Positions 4,456 through 54,014 of a DNA stretch of 64,000 nt are shown here, in pieces. Made by a program: the position numbers and the translations under genes. Position 1 is the first letter of the stretch. Every line of letters begins with the position of its first letter. The stretch is from NCBI GenBank assembly GCA_014236755.1, contig JACCKY010000002.1, positions 62,001 to 126,000 of the forward strand, read 5' to 3'. The DNA comes from Candidatus Petromonas tenebris. GTDB taxonomy: Bacteria > Bacillota > Clostridia > Peptostreptococcales > Caminicellaceae. The notes under the pieces were generated by a model. The model searched no databases and was not told the DNA's origin. It worked only from the letters and a program-made list of their open reading frames with translations.

Positions 4456-4857
4456 ATGAAAAAGAAAGTAGCATTTGTATGTGTTCACAATTCATGTCGT
4501 TCACAGATGGCAGAGGCCTGGGCTAAAAAATTGGGTAGTGATGTACTTGAAGTGTATTCAGCTGGAACAGAAGAATATCCTGAGGTAAAACCGGGAGCAA
4601 TAAAGGTGTTGGAAGAAGTAGGAATAGACATGAGTGAGCACTATCCCAAACTTCTATCAGATATACCTGAAGAAATAGATATATTAGTAACTATGGGATG
4701 CAATGTAGTGTGCCCGTATGTTCCATGTAAGCATTCTGAAGATTGGGGCCTTGATGACCCATCAGGAGGACCAATTGAAGGATTTAGAAAAACAAGAGAT
4801 ATTATAAAAGAGAAGGTACAGGATTTAATAGATAGAGTTAAAAAAGGAAGATTATAA
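4456..4857 (+). CDS. arsC: Arsenate reductase, low-molecular-weight phosphatase fold
   Basis: 133 residues. The CX5R phosphatase loop is C9-VHNSC-R15, followed by SQMAEAW. The redox cysteines expected of thioredoxin-coupled ArsC lie in the GCNVVCPYVPC segment (about residues 80-91), and the acid motif is DDPSGG. It reduces arsenate to arsenite, which an efflux system then exports. It is divergent from the arsR-permease-thioredoxin unit, so reductase, thioredoxin and exporter lie together. The next genes downstream (arsD, arsA) are broken. Good AAGGAGG ribosome binding site. Confidence 0.9.
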   Translation: MKKKVAFVCVHNSCRSQMAEAWAKKLGSDVLEVYSAGTEEYPEVKPGAIKVLEEVGIDMSEHYPKLLSDIPEEIDILVTMGCNVVCPYVPCKHSEDWGLDDPSGGPIEGFRKTRDIIKEKVQDLIDRVKKGRL

Positions 4858-6452: not shown

Positions 6453-6549
6453 GGGAGTAGATGGGTGCTGGTGTGCCCTCTGGTCTTCAAAACCAGTTTG
6501 AGGGGTTAGGAGCCTCTCAGGTGGGTTCGATTCCCACATACTCCCGCCA
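6453..6549 (+). tRNA. selC: Selenocysteine tRNA, anticodon UCA
   Basis: 97 bases including an encoded CCA. The acceptor stem GGGAGTA/TACTCCC has an eighth G-A apposition, the discriminator is G, and the D arm is long. The anticodon stem-loop CTGGT-CTTCAAA-ACCAG carries TCA. The variable arm is long, and the T arm is GTGGG-TTCGATT-CCCAC. A UCA anticodon with an extended acceptor and variable arm is diagnostic of tRNA-Sec. The organism therefore inserts Sec at UGA. No selA, selB, selD or obvious selenoprotein gene lies in this window. Confidence 0.96.
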
Positions 6550-20714: not shown

Positions 20715-22630
20715 GTGCGCCGGGCATGCGTAGCAACTAGGTGGTGAAAGTCCACTGTGGGGGCCCGCCGTGCCAACTGCTAGCCAAAGGCAAGGGTGTC
20801 CATTGTGAGGTGGAATCTGAAGGAAGCCGGAGGCAAAATCCTGGTCCGAGGTACACGAATCACATTTGAGGCTATGTAAATCGGGTGAGTTTGCATATCA
20901 AAACAAAGCCCAAAACGGTCCGAAGGTTTATGTAGTAAATGTGGCGGATATATGGGAGGAAAGTGGTTACGCTTACCCCGGGAGGTCTCAAGGATACGTT
21001 ATCAAGATAAATTTCGAGATAACAACCTATACAGCGATGTATAGCTGAACCTTGAGAAGTCAGCAGAGGTCATAGTACCTATCTAGACCTAGGATAGACA
21101 GGGAAGGACCGAACATTAAGGAGGTCAGTAGCATTGAAAGATTCGAAAGGCATACAAAGACCACAGAAAACTTCATATGAAGGCTATTTTGCTGAAGTAG
21201 AGTTGGAAACTCAAGATAGGCAGGAAGCGTGTAGTATGCCTTCGGCATCTGATATGGCGAAAGCCAAAGTTCAAACAGATACTGCAAACCTTTTAGAAAA
21301 GATTCTTCTGAGAGACAACTTAAACAAAGCATATAAAAGAGTGAAGGAGAATAAAGGGGGCTATGGTGTTGACGGAATGAAGGTAGAAAAGCTTCTGCCT
21401 TTTCTAAAACAGCATGGTTTATCCTTAATAAAGGAAATAGCTATGGGAAAATATAAACCCCAACCGGTAAGAAGAGTAGAAATTCCTAAACCAAATGGTG
21501 GTATTAGGCTACTAGGTATACCTACGGTAGTAGACAGATTTATTCAGCAAGCCATAGCACAAGTATTAACTAAAGTTTATGACAAGGACTTTTCAGAAAG
21601 CAGCTATGGATTTAGACCCGGTAGGGACGCTCATATGGCAGTCAAACAAGCTAAGGAATATATGAATCAGGGATATAGATGGGTGGTCGATATAGACTTA
21701 GAGAAATTCTTTGATAAGGTAAATCATGACATACTAATGTCAATTCTAGCAAAGAAAATACAGGATAAGATGGTACTAAAACTAATAAGGAAATACTTAC
21801 AGTCAGGTGTCATGATAGGTGGTTTATACTCTAAAACAGAGAAAGGAACCCCGCAAGGAGGACCTCTAAGCCCACTACTCAGTAACATACTACTAGATGA
21901 ATTAGACAAAGAATTAGAGAAAAGAGGACATAAATTCTGTAGATATGCTGATGATTGCAATGTGTATGTAAAGAGTAAAAGAGCTGGTGAAAGAGTAATG
22001 AAAAGTCTAACTAAATTCCTAGAAAAGAAGCTTAAACTTACAGTTAATAAAGATAAAAGCGCAGTGGATAGACCATATGGAAAAGGAAGTTCTTAGGTTT
22101 TACCTTTTATTTTAATAAAGGAAAAGTAAGAATTAGAGCACATAATAAAAGTATAGAAAGGCTTAAGAATAAAATAAGAGAAATCACAAATAGAAACGTA
22201 GGTACAAGTATGGAGTGGAGGATTAAAAGACTTAACCTCCTTGCAGTCGGTTGGGTAAATTATTTTAAAATAGCTGATATGAAAGGTAAACTTAGAGAAA
22301 TAGACGAATGGACTAGAAGAAGGCTTAGAGCCTGCCTATGGAAACAATGGAAGAAAATCAAAACTAAATTTGCAAATCTTAAGAAGTTTGGAATTCCAGT
22401 ATATAAAGCTTAGCAATATGCCAATACCCGAAAGGGTTATTGGCGTATATCTAAAAGTCCAATACTAAGTAAGAACTTGACTAATCAGTATTGGATTAAT
22501 CAAGGCCTTAAAACATTCTCCATGCAGTATAGTAAACTGAACTTATCTTAATGAACCGCCAAGTACCGAACGGTATGCTTGGTGGTGTGAGAGGACGGTA
22601 ATTAAAATAATTAATTACCTCCTACTCGAT
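20715..22630 (+). mobile_element. Group IIC intron
   Basis: The 5' end GTGCGCCGGGCATGCGTAGC and the following domain I blocks (GGTGAAAGTCC, AAGGGTGTCC, GGAATCTGAAGGAAGC, CACGAATCACAT, GAGTTTGCATA, GAGGTC, AGTCAGCAGAGGTCATAGTACC) match the Oceanobacillus iheyensis-type IIC ribozyme as I know it. Domain V is GAACCGCCAAGTACCGAACG with GGTGGTGTGAGAGG. Domain VI ends CCTCCTACTCGAT at 22630. It is inserted directly after a terminator hairpin, the known preference of class IIC introns. Its reverse transcriptase is broken, so retromobility in cis is unlikely, while the ribozyme core appears intact. Confidence 0.93.
21134..22551 (+). pseudogene. ltrA: Intron-encoded reverse transcriptase/maturase, frameshifted and with a premature stop
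   Basis: TTG start 9 bases after AAGGAGG. The RT fingers and palm are intact (GIRLLGIPTVVDRFIQQA, YGFRPGR, VDIDLEKFFDKVNHD, GTPQGGPLSPLLSN, active site YADD). Near 22074-22080 the expected RPWKRKFLGFTF is disrupted by about two extra bases (CCATATGG for CCATGG), sending the frame to a stop at 22094-22096. The maturase part continues in another frame. TAG at 22411-22413 replaces the Trp of KAWxxANTRKGYWR. Similarity then resumes to TAA 22551. No endonuclease domain, as usual for IIC. Confidence 0.88.
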
Positions 22631-30318: not shown

Positions 30319-32535
30319 ATGAATAAAGAACTTATCGATGAATTCAACAAACTGTTAAATGAAGAATTTTTAGAAAGCTATAGTAAAGATGAGTTTTATC
30401 TTCATGTTGTAAAGCAATCTATTCTAAATAAGCATAGAATTAAGTATGTTGATTATAACAATCTAATTAAAAAGGCCCTTATTGATCCGAAAAAGATTAA
30501 AAATATAAATATAAGTGATAAGTTGATTAAATTAGTAGGATCTATGGATTTATTCTTTTTATGTAGTATTTCTGAAGAATACATAGGGGAAAAGAAGCGT
30601 GAGGTTACAGGTAGCTACTATACCCCTCCTTATATTATTAAACATATGGTTTATAACTCTTTAAAAAATTACTTCCTTGAAAACACTAGAATTAATGAGA
30701 AAAGTATAGATAATTTAATAAAAGATGAGATAATTCATCATATACAGAAAAATGAATTAGAGCAGTTGTTAGATAGCTTAAAAAGTATAAAGGTCATAGA
30801 TATATCCTGTGGGACAGGTTTGTTTTTGTTATATATGTTTAGAAAGATTTTTAATATAAAGTTTATAATCTCTAAAAACCTAGGATTGGAATTTGATTAT
30901 TTTAAAGAGAAAAAGTACATTATAGAGAATAATATATTTGGCATAGACATTCAGAGTCTTCCATTAGAGATTTTTGTTTTAACATGCATCGATATACTTG
31001 CATGTTACAGAGAGTTTGATATTAAAGGATTAAATTTTAATATATATCAAAAAAATAGCATATTAGGCCCCAAAATATATAATCTGGATAGAATAAAGGA
31101 GATTGTAGATAAAGGAGGATTTGATATTGTAATAGGAAATCCTCCTTACATTGGAGAAAAGGGCAATAAACATAAATTCCATGAAATAAAACAATATAAA
31201 TTTGGGAAAAAATACTATGAAGGTAAAATGGATTACTTTTACTATTTTGTCTATAGAGGAATTGAATTATTAAGAAAAAATGGAATTTTGACTTATATAA
31301 CTACAAACTATTTTATTACAGCAGATGGAGCATCTAAATTTAGAAACTTTTTAAAAGAGAATACAGCTTTAAAAAACATAATATATTTTAATGAATATGA
31401 AATCTTTAAATCAGCCAAAGGGCAACATAATTTAATATTTACCCTTGTAAAGGGTTTTGATCCTGATAAAAAGATATTAATACAGTACTTTAAAGGAAAT
31501 AAGTATAGTCAGGATCAGATAAGTGAAGCTATATTTAACTCCCGTAAGACTATAAAAGATTATTCTTTTTATACTTTGAAGAGTCAAAATGATCTATACA
31601 GTAGTAGCGGTAATATGCTAATCTTTTCTGATAAGAGATATTCAAATATAATAAATAAAATCAAATGTGGCAGTCATCAGACATTAGGAGATATATGTAA
31701 TATAAACCAGGGAATAGTTAGTGGAGCAGACAAGGTAACAAAGAAAATGATGGATGTGAAATTGAGCAGCAGTGAAATAGAAAAATTTAACATAAAGCCT
31801 AATAAAGGAATTTTTGTAGTAAATAGAGAAGAAATAACTGATAGATATTTTAAAAATTGTAAATTATTAAAACCCTTTTATAAAAACAGTGATGTGAAAA
31901 AATATTATACTAAAAAGAATCCCCAAAAATTTATTTTATACTTTACGGATAAAAACATTCTAGATAATAAGTCTTGTCCTATTATTAAAAATCATCTTAA
32001 TAAATTCGAAAATGTGTTAAGCATGCGAAGAGAGACCGTGAAAGGAGTTAGAAAATGGTATTCTCTGCAATGGAGCAGAGATGAATCTATATTTGAAAAA
32101 CCTAAAATTGTTGTACCACATAGATCACTGCTCAACAATTTCGGTTACAATGAGCTTCCTTGGTATGCAAGTGCGGATGTATATTTCATAACTGCTAAAG
32201 AAAATTTAACGAGCTTAAAGTTGCTTCTATGCTTGTTAAATTCAAAAATTACATATTTTTGGCTTTTTAATATGGGAAAAAGAAAAGGCAATTATCTTGA
32301 GCTATATTCAAAACCATTATCCCAAATACCTATATATTTGGATTTAGATAATAACATAAAAAAATATTTGTTAGATATTACAGATAAGGTTTTACAAACA
32401 ATCGATAATAAGTTTGATATGGCAGCTATTGAACATTATCAAGATATGATTGATAAAAAGCTGTATAAAATATACGGCTTTAATGAAGATGAAATAGAAG
32501 CTATAGAGAAACAATATAGGGAGACAAAAAAATAA
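30319..32535 (+). CDS. Orphan N6-adenine DNA methyltransferase (Eco57I/TaqI class, CamA-like)
   Basis: 738 residues. The order is an N-terminal helical region of about 95 residues without a nuclease motif, motif X GSYYTPPYIIKHM (about 97-109), motif I VIDISCGTGLFLL (about 160), catalytic NPPY (274-277), and a TaqI-like specificity region with NQGIVSGADKV (about 463) and RKWYSLQWSRDESIFEKPKI (about 576-595). Motif I, NPPYIG and the WYxLQW block resemble the clostridial sporulation-linked methyltransferase CamA, which is shorter (about 580). No restriction endonuclease is recognisable among its neighbours, so it may act in epigenetic regulation. Recognition sequence unknown. Confidence 0.85.
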   Translation: MNKELIDEFNKLLNEEFLESYSKDEFYLHVVKQSILNKHRIKYVDYNNLIKKALIDPKKIKNINISDKLIKLVGSMDLFFLCSISEEYIGEKKREVTGSYYTPPYIIKHMVYNSLKNYFLENTRINEKSIDNLIKDEIIHHIQKNELEQLLDSLKSIKVIDISCGTGLFLLYMFRKIFNIKFIISKNLGLEFDYFKEKKYIIENNIFGIDIQSLPLEIFVLTCIDILACYREFDIKGLNFNIYQKNSILGPKIYNLDRIKEIVDKGGFDIVIGNPPYIGEKGNKHKFHEIKQYKFGKKYYEGKMDYFYYFVYRGIELLRKNGILTYITTNYFITADGASKFRNFLKENTALKNIIYFNEYEIFKSAKGQHNLIFTLVKGFDPDKKILIQYFKGNKYSQDQISEAIFNSRKTIKDYSFYTLKSQNDLYSSSGNMLIFSDKRYSNIINKIKCGSHQTLGDICNINQGIVSGADKVTKKMMDVKLSSSEIEKFNIKPNKGIFVVNREEITDRYFKNCKLLKPFYKNSDVKKYYTKKNPQKFILYFTDKNILDNKSCPIIKNHLNKFENVLSMRRETVKGVRKWYSLQWSRDESIFEKPKIVVPHRSLLNNFGYNELPWYASADVYFITAKENLTSLKLLLCLLNSKITYFWLFNMGKRKGNYLELYSKPLSQIPIYLDLDNNIKKYLLDITDKVLQTIDNKFDMAAIEHYQDMIDKKLYKIYGFNEDEIEAIEKQYRETKK

Positions 32536-47539: not shown

Positions 47540-47566
47540 TTAGCACTCGCTAGATTAGAGTGCTAA
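47540..47566 (+). promoter_or_regulatory. CIRCE operator (HrcA binding site)
   Basis: TTAGCACTC (47540-47548), nine bases, GAGTGCTAA (47558-47566) is a perfect match to the CIRCE consensus. It lies between the promoter and hrcA, so the operon, including the archaeal-like chaperonin, should be repressed by HrcA. Confidence 0.98.
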
Positions 47567-47583: not shown

Positions 47584-48612
47584 GTGAAGTTGGTAGACAG
47601 AAAATTAAAAATTCTACAAGCCATTATTGATGATTTTATAACTACTGCTCAACCCGTAGGTTCTAGAACTATTGCAAAAAAATATAATTTAGGCATAAGC
47701 TCGGCTACAATTAGAAATGAAATGTCTGATCTTGAGGAAATGGGTTATTTAGTTCAGCCCCATACTTCATCGGGCAGAATACCATCAGATTTAGGATACA
47801 GGCTTTATGTTGATAACTTAATGAAGCAGCAGGAATTGGCAAATAGACAAAAACAATTAATACAGAAGTTATTAATAAATAAAATTTTTGAAATTGAGGA
47901 TCTAGTTCAACAATCCTCAAAGGTGTTATCCAAGATTACCAATTTAACTTCATTAAGTCTATCACCCCAGTTTAAGAAGAGTAAGTTAAAGAATATAAAA
48001 CTGGTACAAGTTGATAATGACAAAGTCCTCTTAATTTTGGTTTCTAGTTCGGGAATAGTAAAAAATGTTATTTTTAGAATCAGCGAAATTTCACAAAGTA
48101 TCTTGAATAAAATATCTAATTTATTACAAGCTAAATTAAAAGGGCTTACTATTGAGGATTTAAATGATGAAGTTATTAATAATCTAAAAAATGAAATTTA
48201 TGAATATAGCACCACAATTGAAGCCCTATTACCTATATTGCGTAATACGCTTTGTGAAATAGATGATAGTGAGATTTACCTTGATGGTATCACAAATATA
48301 TTCAACTTACCTGAGTTTACAGATATTAATAGAGCAAAACAATTTTTATCAACTTTAGAAAAAAAGGAATTGATGTATGAAGTTTTAAAAGATAGTGACC
48401 AAGATGATGTGTGTATCAAGATTGGTCGTGAAAATAAATTAGATGAGATTAAGGACTACAGTGTTATCACTGCTACTTATAAATTGAATGGAAGAGTTAT
48501 TGGAAAAATTGGAGTTATAGGGCCAACCAGAATGAATTATTCTAATATTGTGCCTGTTATGCGATATATAACCGATACGTTATCTGAGATTTTAAAAAAT
48601 ATAAATTTATAA
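47584..48612 (+). CDS. hrcA: Heat-inducible transcription repressor HrcA
   Basis: About 343 residues from GTG 47584 (GGGGAGTGG upstream). Winged helix with SRTIAKKYNLGISSATIRNEMSDLEEMGYL, then GRIPSDLGYRLYVD and the C-terminal GAF-like domain ending KIGVIGPTRMNYSNIVPVM. It represses from the CIRCE element upstream. First gene of the operon with the group III chaperonin, grpE, dnaK and dnaJ. Confidence 0.96.
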   Translation: MKLVDRKLKILQAIIDDFITTAQPVGSRTIAKKYNLGISSATIRNEMSDLEEMGYLVQPHTSSGRIPSDLGYRLYVDNLMKQQELANRQKQLIQKLLINKIFEIEDLVQQSSKVLSKITNLTSLSLSPQFKKSKLKNIKLVQVDNDKVLLILVSSSGIVKNVIFRISEISQSILNKISNLLQAKLKGLTIEDLNDEVINNLKNEIYEYSTTIEALLPILRNTLCEIDDSEIYLDGITNIFNLPEFTDINRAKQFLSTLEKKELMYEVLKDSDQDDVCIKIGRENKLDEIKDYSVITATYKLNGRVIGKIGVIGPTRMNYSNIVPVMRYITDTLSEILKNINL

Positions 48613-48662: not shown

Positions 48663-50195
48663 ATGAATATTGGAGAAAGTGAATTTGAAAAAAGCAAATA
48701 TAAATTATCTGCTCTTGAAAATAACATAAAAGCTATAAAATCTGTTGTGTCAGCCGTTGAAGGAACACTAGGTCCTAGAGGTATGGATTGCATGATAGTA
48801 GATGACTATGGTAATGCAATAATTACTAATGATGGCATTACTATTTTAAAGGAGATATCTGTGACTCATCCTGCAGCTAAGTTATTAATAAATTCAGTTA
48901 TGGCTCAAAAAAGAGAGGCAGGAGATGGGACTACTACTTTAACTGTTCTGACAGGTGCACTTTTGGATTCTGCCTTTAAGGCAGCTGAAAAGGGTGTGCC
49001 TATGCATAAGATTATTGATGGACTTAAAAAGGGAATAAAAAAATCTATCGAAATAACAGAATCAGAAAAAATTTTAATTACCGAAGAAAATGAAAACTTA
49101 TTAGAAAAGGTGGCATTTATTTCAGGAAGAGGAAATGAAGACATTTCCCAACTGGTATATAAGGCCTCTGAAATTATTGGTTATAATAGGATGAGAGAAA
49201 AGGAATTTCGCTTATCAGATTGTGTTGAGGTTATAGAAGATGCTGAAAATCAGGTCTTTGGTGGTGTGATTGTAGATAAGAAACCTTTAAATCTTGACAT
49301 GAGTCAAGAATTTGAGGATGTTAAAATTTTGATTCTTGATGATTCGCTGGATGTGGAAGAGTTTCGAAGGGAACTACTGGCTACAGAAGGTGGCTTTAAT
49401 AAGTATCTTGAAAGCGTTGATGAAATAAAAATGTGGGCAGAAAAATTAATAGATTTAAATATAGGTATCGTTCTATGTAGCAGAGGTGTTAACCCTATTG
49501 TTGAACAAATACTTTCTGATGGAGGAGTATGTGTTGTAGATAGGGTTTTATATAGTCAACTGGAAAAGACTGCAAAATATTGTGGTTGCAAGATATTGAA
49601 AAAGAACAGTCTTAGAAAAAGTGTATCAGAATTAAATAGCTACTGTGGTAGAGCAGGAAAAGTAATATATGACAGCGGTAGAGAGCAGCTTAGAATTCAA
49701 TTAGGAAAAGGGAAACCTTACGTTACTATTGTAATTTCTGCATCTACAGCTGAAATTATTAGGGAGAAAGAGAGAATAACAAGGGACGCTGCATCTTCAG
49801 TCCAATTTTCAGTTTGTGACGGAGTTGTTGCAGGTGGAGGAGCCTTTGAAATATATTGTTCAAATCGATTAAAAAAATATAGTGAGTCAATTTATGGTAT
49901 GGAAAAATACGGAGTATATTGTGTAGCTGAAGCATTAAAAAAACCATTTCTGCAAATGGTAGAAAATGCTGGGCTAAATCCCTTGGAAACTTTTGAAAAG
50001 ATTTTAAATGTTACAAATGAACAAGACAAAAAATATTTATCTGTAGATTTTGATAGTGGCAAAGTTAGAGATATGTTAACTGAAAAAGTATTTGATCCCG
50101 CTTCTGTTAAGAAGAGTGTTTTCAAAAAGGCAGGAGAAGTAGCAGAGGCTATTTTAAAAATTAACTTAATTTTAAAGGGTAAAACAAGTAACTAA
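48663..50195 (+). CDS. Archaeal-like (group III) chaperonin
   Basis: 510 residues, clearly thermosome/CCT-like rather than GroEL-like. VEGTLGPRGMDCMIVDDYGN, IITNDGITILKE and THPAAKLLINSV are followed by the nucleotide motif GDGTTT (residues 87-92). The catalytic Asp region RDAASSVQFSVCDGVVAGGG is near 375; AGLNPLETFEKIL and VFDPASVKKSVFKKAGEVA close the equatorial domain. Group III chaperonins, described from Carboxydothermus and a limited set of Firmicutes, form GroES-independent rings encoded inside the dnaK operon. That is exactly this location, between hrcA and grpE. Confidence 0.93.
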   Translation: MNIGESEFEKSKYKLSALENNIKAIKSVVSAVEGTLGPRGMDCMIVDDYGNAIITNDGITILKEISVTHPAAKLLINSVMAQKREAGDGTTTLTVLTGALLDSAFKAAEKGVPMHKIIDGLKKGIKKSIEITESEKILITEENENLLEKVAFISGRGNEDISQLVYKASEIIGYNRMREKEFRLSDCVEVIEDAENQVFGGVIVDKKPLNLDMSQEFEDVKILILDDSLDVEEFRRELLATEGGFNKYLESVDEIKMWAEKLIDLNIGIVLCSRGVNPIVEQILSDGGVCVVDRVLYSQLEKTAKYCGCKILKKNSLRKSVSELNSYCGRAGKVIYDSGREQLRIQLGKGKPYVTIVISASTAEIIREKERITRDAASSVQFSVCDGVVAGGGAFEIYCSNRLKKYSESIYGMEKYGVYCVAEALKKPFLQMVENAGLNPLETFEKILNVTNEQDKKYLSVDFDSGKVRDMLTEKVFDPASVKKSVFKKAGEVAEAILKINLILKGKTSN

Positions 50196-50222: not shown

Positions 50223-50831
50223 ATGGATAATGTGAAAAAAACAAAAGAATTTAACCTAGAAAAAGAAAATGAAGCGACAAAGGGTGATGTTGATAGCAAT
50301 CTTGAAGCTATTCAAGAGGAACTAGTAGAAGAGACTAATGAAGAAAACTGTGAACGCCAATCTGAACCGTTAGAGAATGAAGAAGAAATTAATAAATATA
50401 TAAAAGAAATCGAAGAGTATAAAGATAAATATTTAAGGTTATCAGCTGACTTTCAAAACTACAAAAAAAGAGTTGAAAGGGAAAAAAAAGAAATATATAA
50501 CTATGGCAGTGAAAAAGTTATACTAGATATACTTCCAATTTTAGATAACTTGGAAAGAGCTATCCATTCTGCAGAAAATGATGGCGGTGAAAATAACAAT
50601 TTGAAAAGTGGTATAGAAATGGTTTATAAGCAGTTTATGGATGCCTTAAAAAAACACGGTGTAGAAGTAATAGAGTGTGTTGGTAAAGAGTTTGATCCTA
50701 ATCGGCATCATGCAGTAATGCAGGAGGAATCACAAGAAAGTGATTCTAATATTGTAATTGAAGAATTTCAAAGAGGTTATATGTTGAACTCTAAGGTTAT
50801 CAGACCTAGCATGGTAAAGGTAGCAAAATAG
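50223..50831 (+). CDS. grpE: Nucleotide exchange factor GrpE
   Basis: About 202 residues from ATG 50223 (GCAGGTGAT upstream). An acidic N-terminal tail is followed by the coiled coil (YLRLSADFQNYKKRVEREKK) and C-terminal beta domain (EVIECVGKEFDPNRHHAVMQ, EFQRGYMLNSKVIRPSMVKV). ADP release factor for DnaK. It is 27 bases after the chaperonin gene. Confidence 0.96.
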   Translation: MDNVKKTKEFNLEKENEATKGDVDSNLEAIQEELVEETNEENCERQSEPLENEEEINKYIKEIEEYKDKYLRLSADFQNYKKRVEREKKEIYNYGSEKVILDILPILDNLERAIHSAENDGGENNNLKSGIEMVYKQFMDALKKHGVEVIECVGKEFDPNRHHAVMQEESQESDSNIVIEEFQRGYMLNSKVIRPSMVKVAK

Positions 50832-50934: not shown

Positions 50935-52770
50935 ATGGGAAAGGTTATTGGAATTGATTTAGGAACAACAAACTCATGTGTAGCAGTGTTAGAAGGTGGA
51001 GAGCCTGTAGTAATACCTAATGCTGAGGGTAATAGAACTACACCATCAATAGTTGCATTTGCGAAAAATGGAGAAAGATTAGTTGGTGAAACAGCTAAAA
51101 GACAAGCGATTACAAACCCTGATAGAACAATAATATCAATAAAAAGACATATGGGTACTGACCACAAAGTTAAAATAGATGATAAAGAATATACTCCACA
51201 GGAAATATCAGCTATGATATTACAAAAACTAAAGGCAGATGCAGAAAGCTACCTTGGAGAAGAGGTTACTGATGTAGTCATTACAGTACCCGCATATTTT
51301 ACAGACAGCCAAAGACAGGCTACTAAAGATGCAGGTAAGATTGCAGGATTAAATGTTAGAAGAATAATTAATGAGCCGACTGCAGCGTCATTAGCCTATG
51401 GAATTGATAAAGAAGATCAAAATCAAAAAATATTAGTTTTTGACCTTGGTGGAGGTACATTTGATGTTTCAATATTAGAGCTTGGAGATGGAGTTTTTGA
51501 AGTTATAGCTACAAATGGAAATAACCACTTAGGTGGTGATGATTTTGACAAGGCGATTATGGACTATTTAGCTGAAGAGTTTAAAAAAGAACATGGAATT
51601 GACCTGCGTCAAGATAATATGTCTCTTCAAAGATTAAAAGATGCTGCTGAAAAGGCTAAAAAAGAACTTTCATCAGTTCAAACTACAAATGTAAATCTTC
51701 CATTTATTACTGCATCATCGTCTGGTCCACTTCATTTAAATATGGATTTAACTAGAGCAAAATTTGAACAACTTACTGCCCACTTAGTAGAAGCTACTTT
51801 AGAACCGACTAAAAAAGCTCTTAAAGATGCAAATCTTTCACCTTCAGATATAGATAAGGTTATTTTAGTTGGAGGGTCTACTAGGATCCCAGCGGTTCAG
51901 AGAGCTATTAAAAATGTTATTAATAAAGACCCATACAAAGGAATAAATCCAGATGAATGTGTTGCTGTAGGAGCTGCAATTCAAGCGGGAGTTTTAACAG
52001 GTGAAGTTAAAGACTTGTTACTTTTAGATGTTACTCCACTATCTTTGGGTATAGAAACATTAGGTGGTGTTTTCACTAAGCTAATTGAAAGAAACACAAC
52101 TATACCTACTAAAAAGAGTCAAATATTCTCTACTGCTGCCGATAATCAAACAGCTGTTGATATACATGTGCTTCAAGGCGAAAGACAAATGGCAAAGGAT
52201 AATACTACTCTTGGAAGATTTCAACTTACAGGTATCCCGCCAGCACCAAGAGGTGTACCACAAATAGAGGTTACTTTTGATATCGATGCAAATGGAATAG
52301 TACATGTATCGGCTAAGGATTTAGGAACAGGTAAAGAGCAAAATATTACTATTACTGCTTCAACCAATCTGTCCGAAGAAGAAATTGAAAAGAAGGTTAA
52401 AGAAGCAGAAAAATTTGCTGAAGAAGATAAAAAGAAAAAAGAAGCTATAGAAGCAAGGAATAAGGCAGACTCTTTAGTTTATGAAACGGAAAAGGCCTTA
52501 AAGGAAGTTGGAGATAAAGTTTCAGATGATGAAAAGAAAAAAATAGAAGAGAAATTAGAAGCCCTTAAAAAAGCCTTAGAGGGAGATAATACAGAAGAAA
52601 TTAAAAAGGCTACAGAAGAATTAACTAATGCATTCCACACTTTATCCCAGAAAATGTATCAACAGGCTGCTCAGGAGGCACAGGCCCAAAATGATACAGC
52701 TAAAGACGGAGATAAAAAGAACGACAATGTGGTAGATGCAGATTATGAAGTTGTTGATGATGAAGAGTAA
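50935..52770 (+). CDS. dnaK: Hsp70 chaperone DnaK
   Basis: 611 residues. ATPase signatures are [37 protein letters not shown] and [16 protein letters not shown]. The linker [14 protein letters not shown] is followed by the substrate domain and lid, ending in an acidic tail ([13 protein letters not shown]). AAGGAGG ribosome binding site. Co-operates with DnaJ and GrpE encoded on either side. Confidence 0.98.
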
Positions 52771-52772
52771 TT

Positions 52773-52797
52773 TAAGGCACCCTAAAAGGGTGCCTTA
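52773..52797 (+). terminator. Attenuator-like hairpin between dnaK and dnaJ
   Basis: TAAGGCACCC (52773-52782) and GGGTGCCTTA (52788-52797) form a perfect 10-bp stem without a proper T run. It would reduce, not abolish, read-through into dnaJ or protect the dnaK mRNA end. Confidence 0.6.
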
Positions 52798-52847
52798 TGG
52801 TTGTACGACTATATACTCACGATCCAAAAAAGAAAGGCGGTAGAGAT

Positions 52848-53984
52848 GTGAGTAAAAAAGACTATTACGAAATATTAGGTGTAGACAGGAACGCCGATGA
52901 ACAAGCCATAAAAAAGGCCTATAGAAAACTGGCAATGAAATACCATCCGGATAGAAACCCGGATAATAAGGAAGCTGAGCATAAATTCAAAGAGATAAAT
53001 GAAGCCTATGAAGTTCTTAGCGATAAAGAGAAAAGAGCTATGTATGACCAATTTGGCCATGCCGGAGTAAATGGTAATGGACAAGGTGGCTTTGGAGGTG
53101 GATTTTCAGGCTTCGGAGGTTTTGATGATATTTTTGGTGATATCTTTGATATGTTTGGAGGAGGTTTTTCTTCCAGCAAAAGAAGAAATAGACCTAAAAA
53201 AGGACATGATGTAAAGACAGAGGTTAGATTAACCTTTGAAGAAGCAGCCTTTGGAGTTGATAAAGATATAGAAATAACTAGATATGAAGAATGTAGCACA
53301 TGTCATGGTTCAGGGGCAAAACCCGGAACAGGTTCAAAAACCTGTCCAAAATGTAATGGAGCTGGAGAAATACGATATTCCCAACGAACTCCTTTAGGAC
53401 AGTTTGTAAATGTTAGAACATGTGATATGTGTCATGGTGATGGCAAAATAGTGGATGAACCCTGTGATACCTGCAGAGGGCAGGGTAAAGTTCGAAAGAG
53501 GAGAAAAATTAGTGTTAAAATACCAGCTGGAGTTGATGATGGCTCCGTAATAACTCTAAGGCAAGAGGGAGAACCTGGAGAAAAGGGAGGCCCTCCGGGC
53601 GATCTTTATATAATAGTTAAAATAATCTCCCACAAAATTTTTAAAAGAGATGGCTATGACGTAATTTGTGAAATACCTATTACTTTTGTTCAGGCAGCCC
53701 TTGGAGATGAAATTATTGTTCCTACACTAGACGGTAGAGTAAAATATAAGATCCCAGAAGGAACTCAAAGTGGAACAGTATTTAGATTAAAGGATAAGGG
53801 AATACCGATTTTAAATGGACATGGTAGAGGCGATCAATATGTAAAAGTGATTGTAGAAGTTCCTAAGAGATTAAATGAGGAACAAAAAGAAGTGCTCAGA
53901 AAATTTGCGGAAGTGATGGGAGAAGATGTCCATGAACAGAGAAAGTCATTTTTTGATAAAGTAAAAGATGTTTTTGGAATATAG
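52848..53984 (+). CDS. dnaJ: Co-chaperone DnaJ
   Basis: About 378 residues from GTG 52848; the frame is open upstream but homology starts at [11 protein letters not shown] domain with YHPDRN, a Gly/Phe linker (about 75-115), four zinc-finger repeats ([32 protein letters not shown]) and the C-terminal substrate domains. Stimulates DnaK ATPase. The AAAGGCGGTAGAG region serves as ribosome binding site. Confidence 0.96.
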
Positions 53985-54014
53985 TCACCTAGCTTTTGCT
54001 AGGTGATTTCATTT
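53985..54014 (+). terminator. Terminator after dnaJ
   Basis: TCACCTAGC (53985-53993) and GCTAGGTGA (53998-54006) with a TTTT loop, then TTTCATTT. Confidence 0.75.

Follow-up and report, generated by a model that had tools for sequence, protein, structure and literature searches.

Group III chaperonins form a well-described class, of which 195 members had been counted in 2017 (PMC5635000). Their genes lie nearly always in dnaK operons, in bacteria that also have groESL. Crystal structures of the open and the closed state have been solved, and DnaK has been suggested to deliver the clients (PMC5635000, PMC5220055). The group is marked, as seen in Ch-CPN of Carboxydothermus hydrogenoformans (5X9U/5X9V), by the lack of the nucleotide-sensing loop and by a shorter lid. 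In Ch-CPN Arg155 and Asp373 serve ATP hydrolysis, and four hydrophobic residues at the lid tip (Leu237, Phe243, Tyr246 and Phe253) have been described as strictly conserved (PMC5635000). A resurrected group III ancestor, ACIII, is available as 9RWQ (PMC12696368); its title in the structure library says group II.

The window analysed here, a stretch of 64,000 nucleotides from Candidatus Petromonas tenebris, contains an intact open reading frame on the + strand (48663-50195, start ATG). Its 510-residue product is a full-length Cpn60_TCP1 protein (profile match, E 1.8e-105). Like the gene of Ch-CPN it is located within a dnaK operon between hrcA and grpE, 50 bases downstream of the former and 27 upstream of the latter, giving the order CIRCE-hrcA-cpn-grpE-dnaK-dnaJ (cpn denotes the chaperonin gene). 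The genes grpE (50223-50831), dnaK (50935-52770) and dnaJ (52797-53984) are all on the + strand. Weak evidence points to a terminator-like hairpin after dnaJ (53983-54008). Upstream of the operon lies a perfect CIRCE inverted repeat (TTAGCACTC-N9-GAGTGCTAA, 47540-47566, 0 mismatches), exactly as the earlier note had claimed; even when up to 3 mismatches are allowed, only 0.02 such sites are expected by chance. It is the predicted operator of HrcA, whose gene is present on the + strand (47584-48612) and whose product scores 360 bits on TIGR00331 (cut-off 197). The start proposed by the ORF finder, GTG at 47560, falls within the CIRCE. GTG 47584, preceded by GGGGAG and with the CIRCE end 17 bases upstream, is judged from the sequence to be the more likely start. 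A consensus scan near the CIRCE gave no sigma-70-type promoter above chance.

Only one other perfect CIRCE is present in the genome. It adjoins groES and groEL on contig C13, which encode the one GroES and the one further chaperonin (GroEL). HrcA is therefore predicted to control two units, groES-groEL and the hrcA-cpn-dnaK operon. A plasmid DNA search gave no match.

The protein had been called thermosome-like on account of its signatures, and all of the quoted motifs are found in the translation (GPRGMDCMIVDDYGN, IITNDGITILKE, HPAAKLL, GDGTTT and RDAASSV). Its class follows from a maximum-likelihood tree of 63 proteins (52 group III, 4 thermosomes and 7 GroELs; 494 columns; IQ-TREE with LG+C20), in which the bootstrap is not fully settled. 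Group III, thermosomes and GroEL each form one clade, with a support of 100/100 for the GroEL branch, and the window protein falls inside group III (96/86). The separate clades speak against a group I identity: although the protein shares with GroEL the Cpn60 family, the ATPase motif GDGTTT and an upstream CIRCE, GroEL needs GroES, is without a built-in lid and has its own tree branch. GroEL models reach up to 150 bits. The NCBI thermosome model scores 298 bits against a cut-off of 671, which together with the absent sensing loop speaks against a group II thermosome. Domain order, built-in lid and catalytic Asp are shared with archaeal thermosomes, but these have the nucleotide-sensing loop, a longer lid and a separate clade. 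In the alignment the loop is replaced by a 6-residue gap relative to four thermosomes, which is common to Ch-CPN, and the lid segment is present but 3 residues shorter than in thermosomes.

Structural comparisons agree with the group III identity. By sequence the best PDB relatives are 9RWQ and Ch-CPN (5X9U). An AlphaFold2 model of middling confidence (built from 6 sequences; pLDDT 76, pTM 0.67) has helices at 236-239 and 242-264 in the lid region, in line with the built-in lid that was looked for. Foldseek ranks 5X9V and 5X9U as its top fold matches, making Ch-CPN the closest fold, at modest whole-chain TM-scores (0.57-0.58).

The window protein, from an AT-rich genome of another class, is about 36% identical to Ch-CPN. 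The ATP-hydrolysis residues show no loss on full alignment: Arg156 and Asp375 align with Arg155 and Asp373 of Ch-CPN and are likewise present in all 48 other group III proteins. At the lid tip Leu, Phe and Tyr are kept and the Phe253 of Ch-CPN is replaced by Ile. Such residues vary in other members as well (Tyr246 is found in 35 of 48) and are therefore not strictly diagnostic of group III. Moreover, the ATP-site motif GPKG reads GPRG. Together with the replacement at the lid tip this could mean an altered activity.

Taken together, we consider it very likely that the gene encodes a group III chaperonin that forms ATP-driven, lidded double rings, is co-transcribed under CIRCE/HrcA and probably takes its clients from DnaK. 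By homology to Ch-CPN, two stacked eight-subunit rings would be formed with ATP binding in the equatorial domain, and the built-in helical lid would close over unfolded proteins without GroES. Analogy with the relatives, the literature and established HrcA/CIRCE knowledge suggests that the chaperonin gene would be transcribed with hrcA, grpE, dnaK and dnaJ from a promoter adjoining the CIRCE. HrcA repression at CIRCE ends when GroEL is occupied by unfolded protein. In this organism HrcA would repress the operon until unfolded protein draws GroEL off HrcA; during heat shock GroEL would be occupied, HrcA would become inactive and the operon would be induced. Given the shared control, the level of the chaperonin would rise in step with that of DnaK and with groESL, a separate unit with a CIRCE of its own upstream, and DnaK would probably pass clients on to it.

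How common such an arrangement is was analysed on 398 genomes sampled evenly across the phylum. A relative (E up to 1e-50) is encoded by 127 of them, about a third, which together with the 195 members known in 2017 (PMC5635000) does not support the earlier view that group III chaperonins occur in few Firmicutes. For the comparison of operons we used 46 (that of the window, three from its family and 42 further ones) plus five named loci from a contig scan, in which 5 of 80 scanned loci proved to be group III and the rest were mainly GroELs, which the patterns match as well. At all 49 loci having both hrcA and the chaperonin gene, a perfect CIRCE lies upstream of hrcA and the chaperonin gene directly follows it. 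Next comes grpE, except at two loci (dnaJ instead) and at one that is cut by the contig end. An archaeal-type folding machine under a standard bacterial CIRCE operator is thus the rule at these loci. In 26 relatives without the chaperonin a CIRCE (at most 1 mismatch) precedes hrcA too, so the element is a property of the operon and not of the chaperonin. None of the open-access papers searched brings CIRCE and a group III chaperonin together. Of the "new representative with clear regulation" the first half stands: the gene adds a member to a common family with the usual regulation and not a new type of regulation.

Several of the loci deserve a separate remark. Locus L139 (genome G077) encodes a sequence identical to Ch-CPN over the compared stretch. 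The contig label of L042 (421-2497; an Armatimonadetes MAG), where a group III chaperonin gene is followed by grpE, lies outside Bacillota. In L162 (G339) a second CIRCE-like site with 3 mismatches (4581-4607) is located between the chaperonin gene (+) and grpE, and as a sequence match it is a possible internal operator. In L156 (G262) and L160 (G310) the chaperonin gene is directly followed by dnaJ in an operon without grpE-dnaK. A replacement of DnaK by the chaperonin was rejected here, since both genomes have grpE and dnaK together on another contig; in each, the dnaK match falls into two parts of a single open frame, with an insertion near residue 80.

The kind of protein is already known, well described and common in the phylum. 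Its restricted presence in the class is less expected, and we regard it as a modest lead. A relative is missing from all 390 genomes sampled elsewhere in the class, and 4 of the 5 sampled species of the family carry the chaperonin. Within the family the window chaperonin shows 59-61% identity, against at most 47% to any other relative found. The HrcA proteins of all five family members group with those of chaperonin-less families of the order (SH-aLRT 98 and 99) and are separate from the HrcA sequences of every other carrier. This indicates that hrcA is native and that, if a transfer occurred, it brought only the chaperonin gene into the operon. In G003, the fifth species (99% complete), the chaperonin is absent and hrcA and grpE are separated by about 120 bases. 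No other HrcA is closer to that of the window (76%). This suggests a loss, although the HrcA tree does not settle in which order the two species branch within the family.

We lean slightly towards a single horizontal gain, in which the chaperonin gene alone entered the native hrcA-grpE junction in the family ancestor, evolved fast with an altered lid tip and was later cleanly lost in one species. Vertical inheritance from the phylum ancestor, with losses in nearly all the rest of the class, is a less probable but serious alternative. The slot between hrcA and grpE is the same as in other classes, and a constrained tree that keeps all other group III sequences as one clade apart from the family is not rejected (p-AU 0.30). 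On the other hand, 0 of 390 other class genomes would demand many losses, and the unconstrained tree places the family within the rest of group III, albeit with weak support (37/93). As neither tree is decisive, it is the distribution alone that favours horizontal gain.

That the chaperonin is decaying or has been repurposed in the family seems improbable. With about 1.5 changes per site its stem branch is long. The window protein departs from the other group III proteins at 29 positions that at least 93% of them conserve (GPKG to GPRG among these), and the gene is absent from the sister species G003; however, the open reading frames are intact in all four carriers, each of which keeps GDGTTT, Arg156, Asp375 and GGG. 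Recent acquisition of a genuine thermosome gene from archaea is hardly credible, since thermosome HMMs do outscore those of GroEL but stay far under the curated cut-off, the group III-specific deletions are present and the tree groups the protein with bacterial group III. If the single gain followed by one loss is true, the family offers a natural with/without comparison for group III clients. More generally, the patchy presence in one class allows carriers and non-carriers to be compared among related species, and this may help to define the clients.

Elsewhere in the window, at 20799-22093 (+), group II intron RNA domains (two Rfam matches, 20799-20973 and 21023-21109) are followed by a reverse transcriptase reading frame. 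This ends early (320 residues), and as coding seems to continue in another frame it looks frameshifted. The methylase encoded at 30319-32535 (+) is of the Eco57I restriction-modification type with a TaqI-like specificity domain. Finally, a selenocysteine tRNA gene (6453-6545, +; Rfam tRNA-Sec, 76.7 bits) suggests that the organism probably makes selenoproteins.
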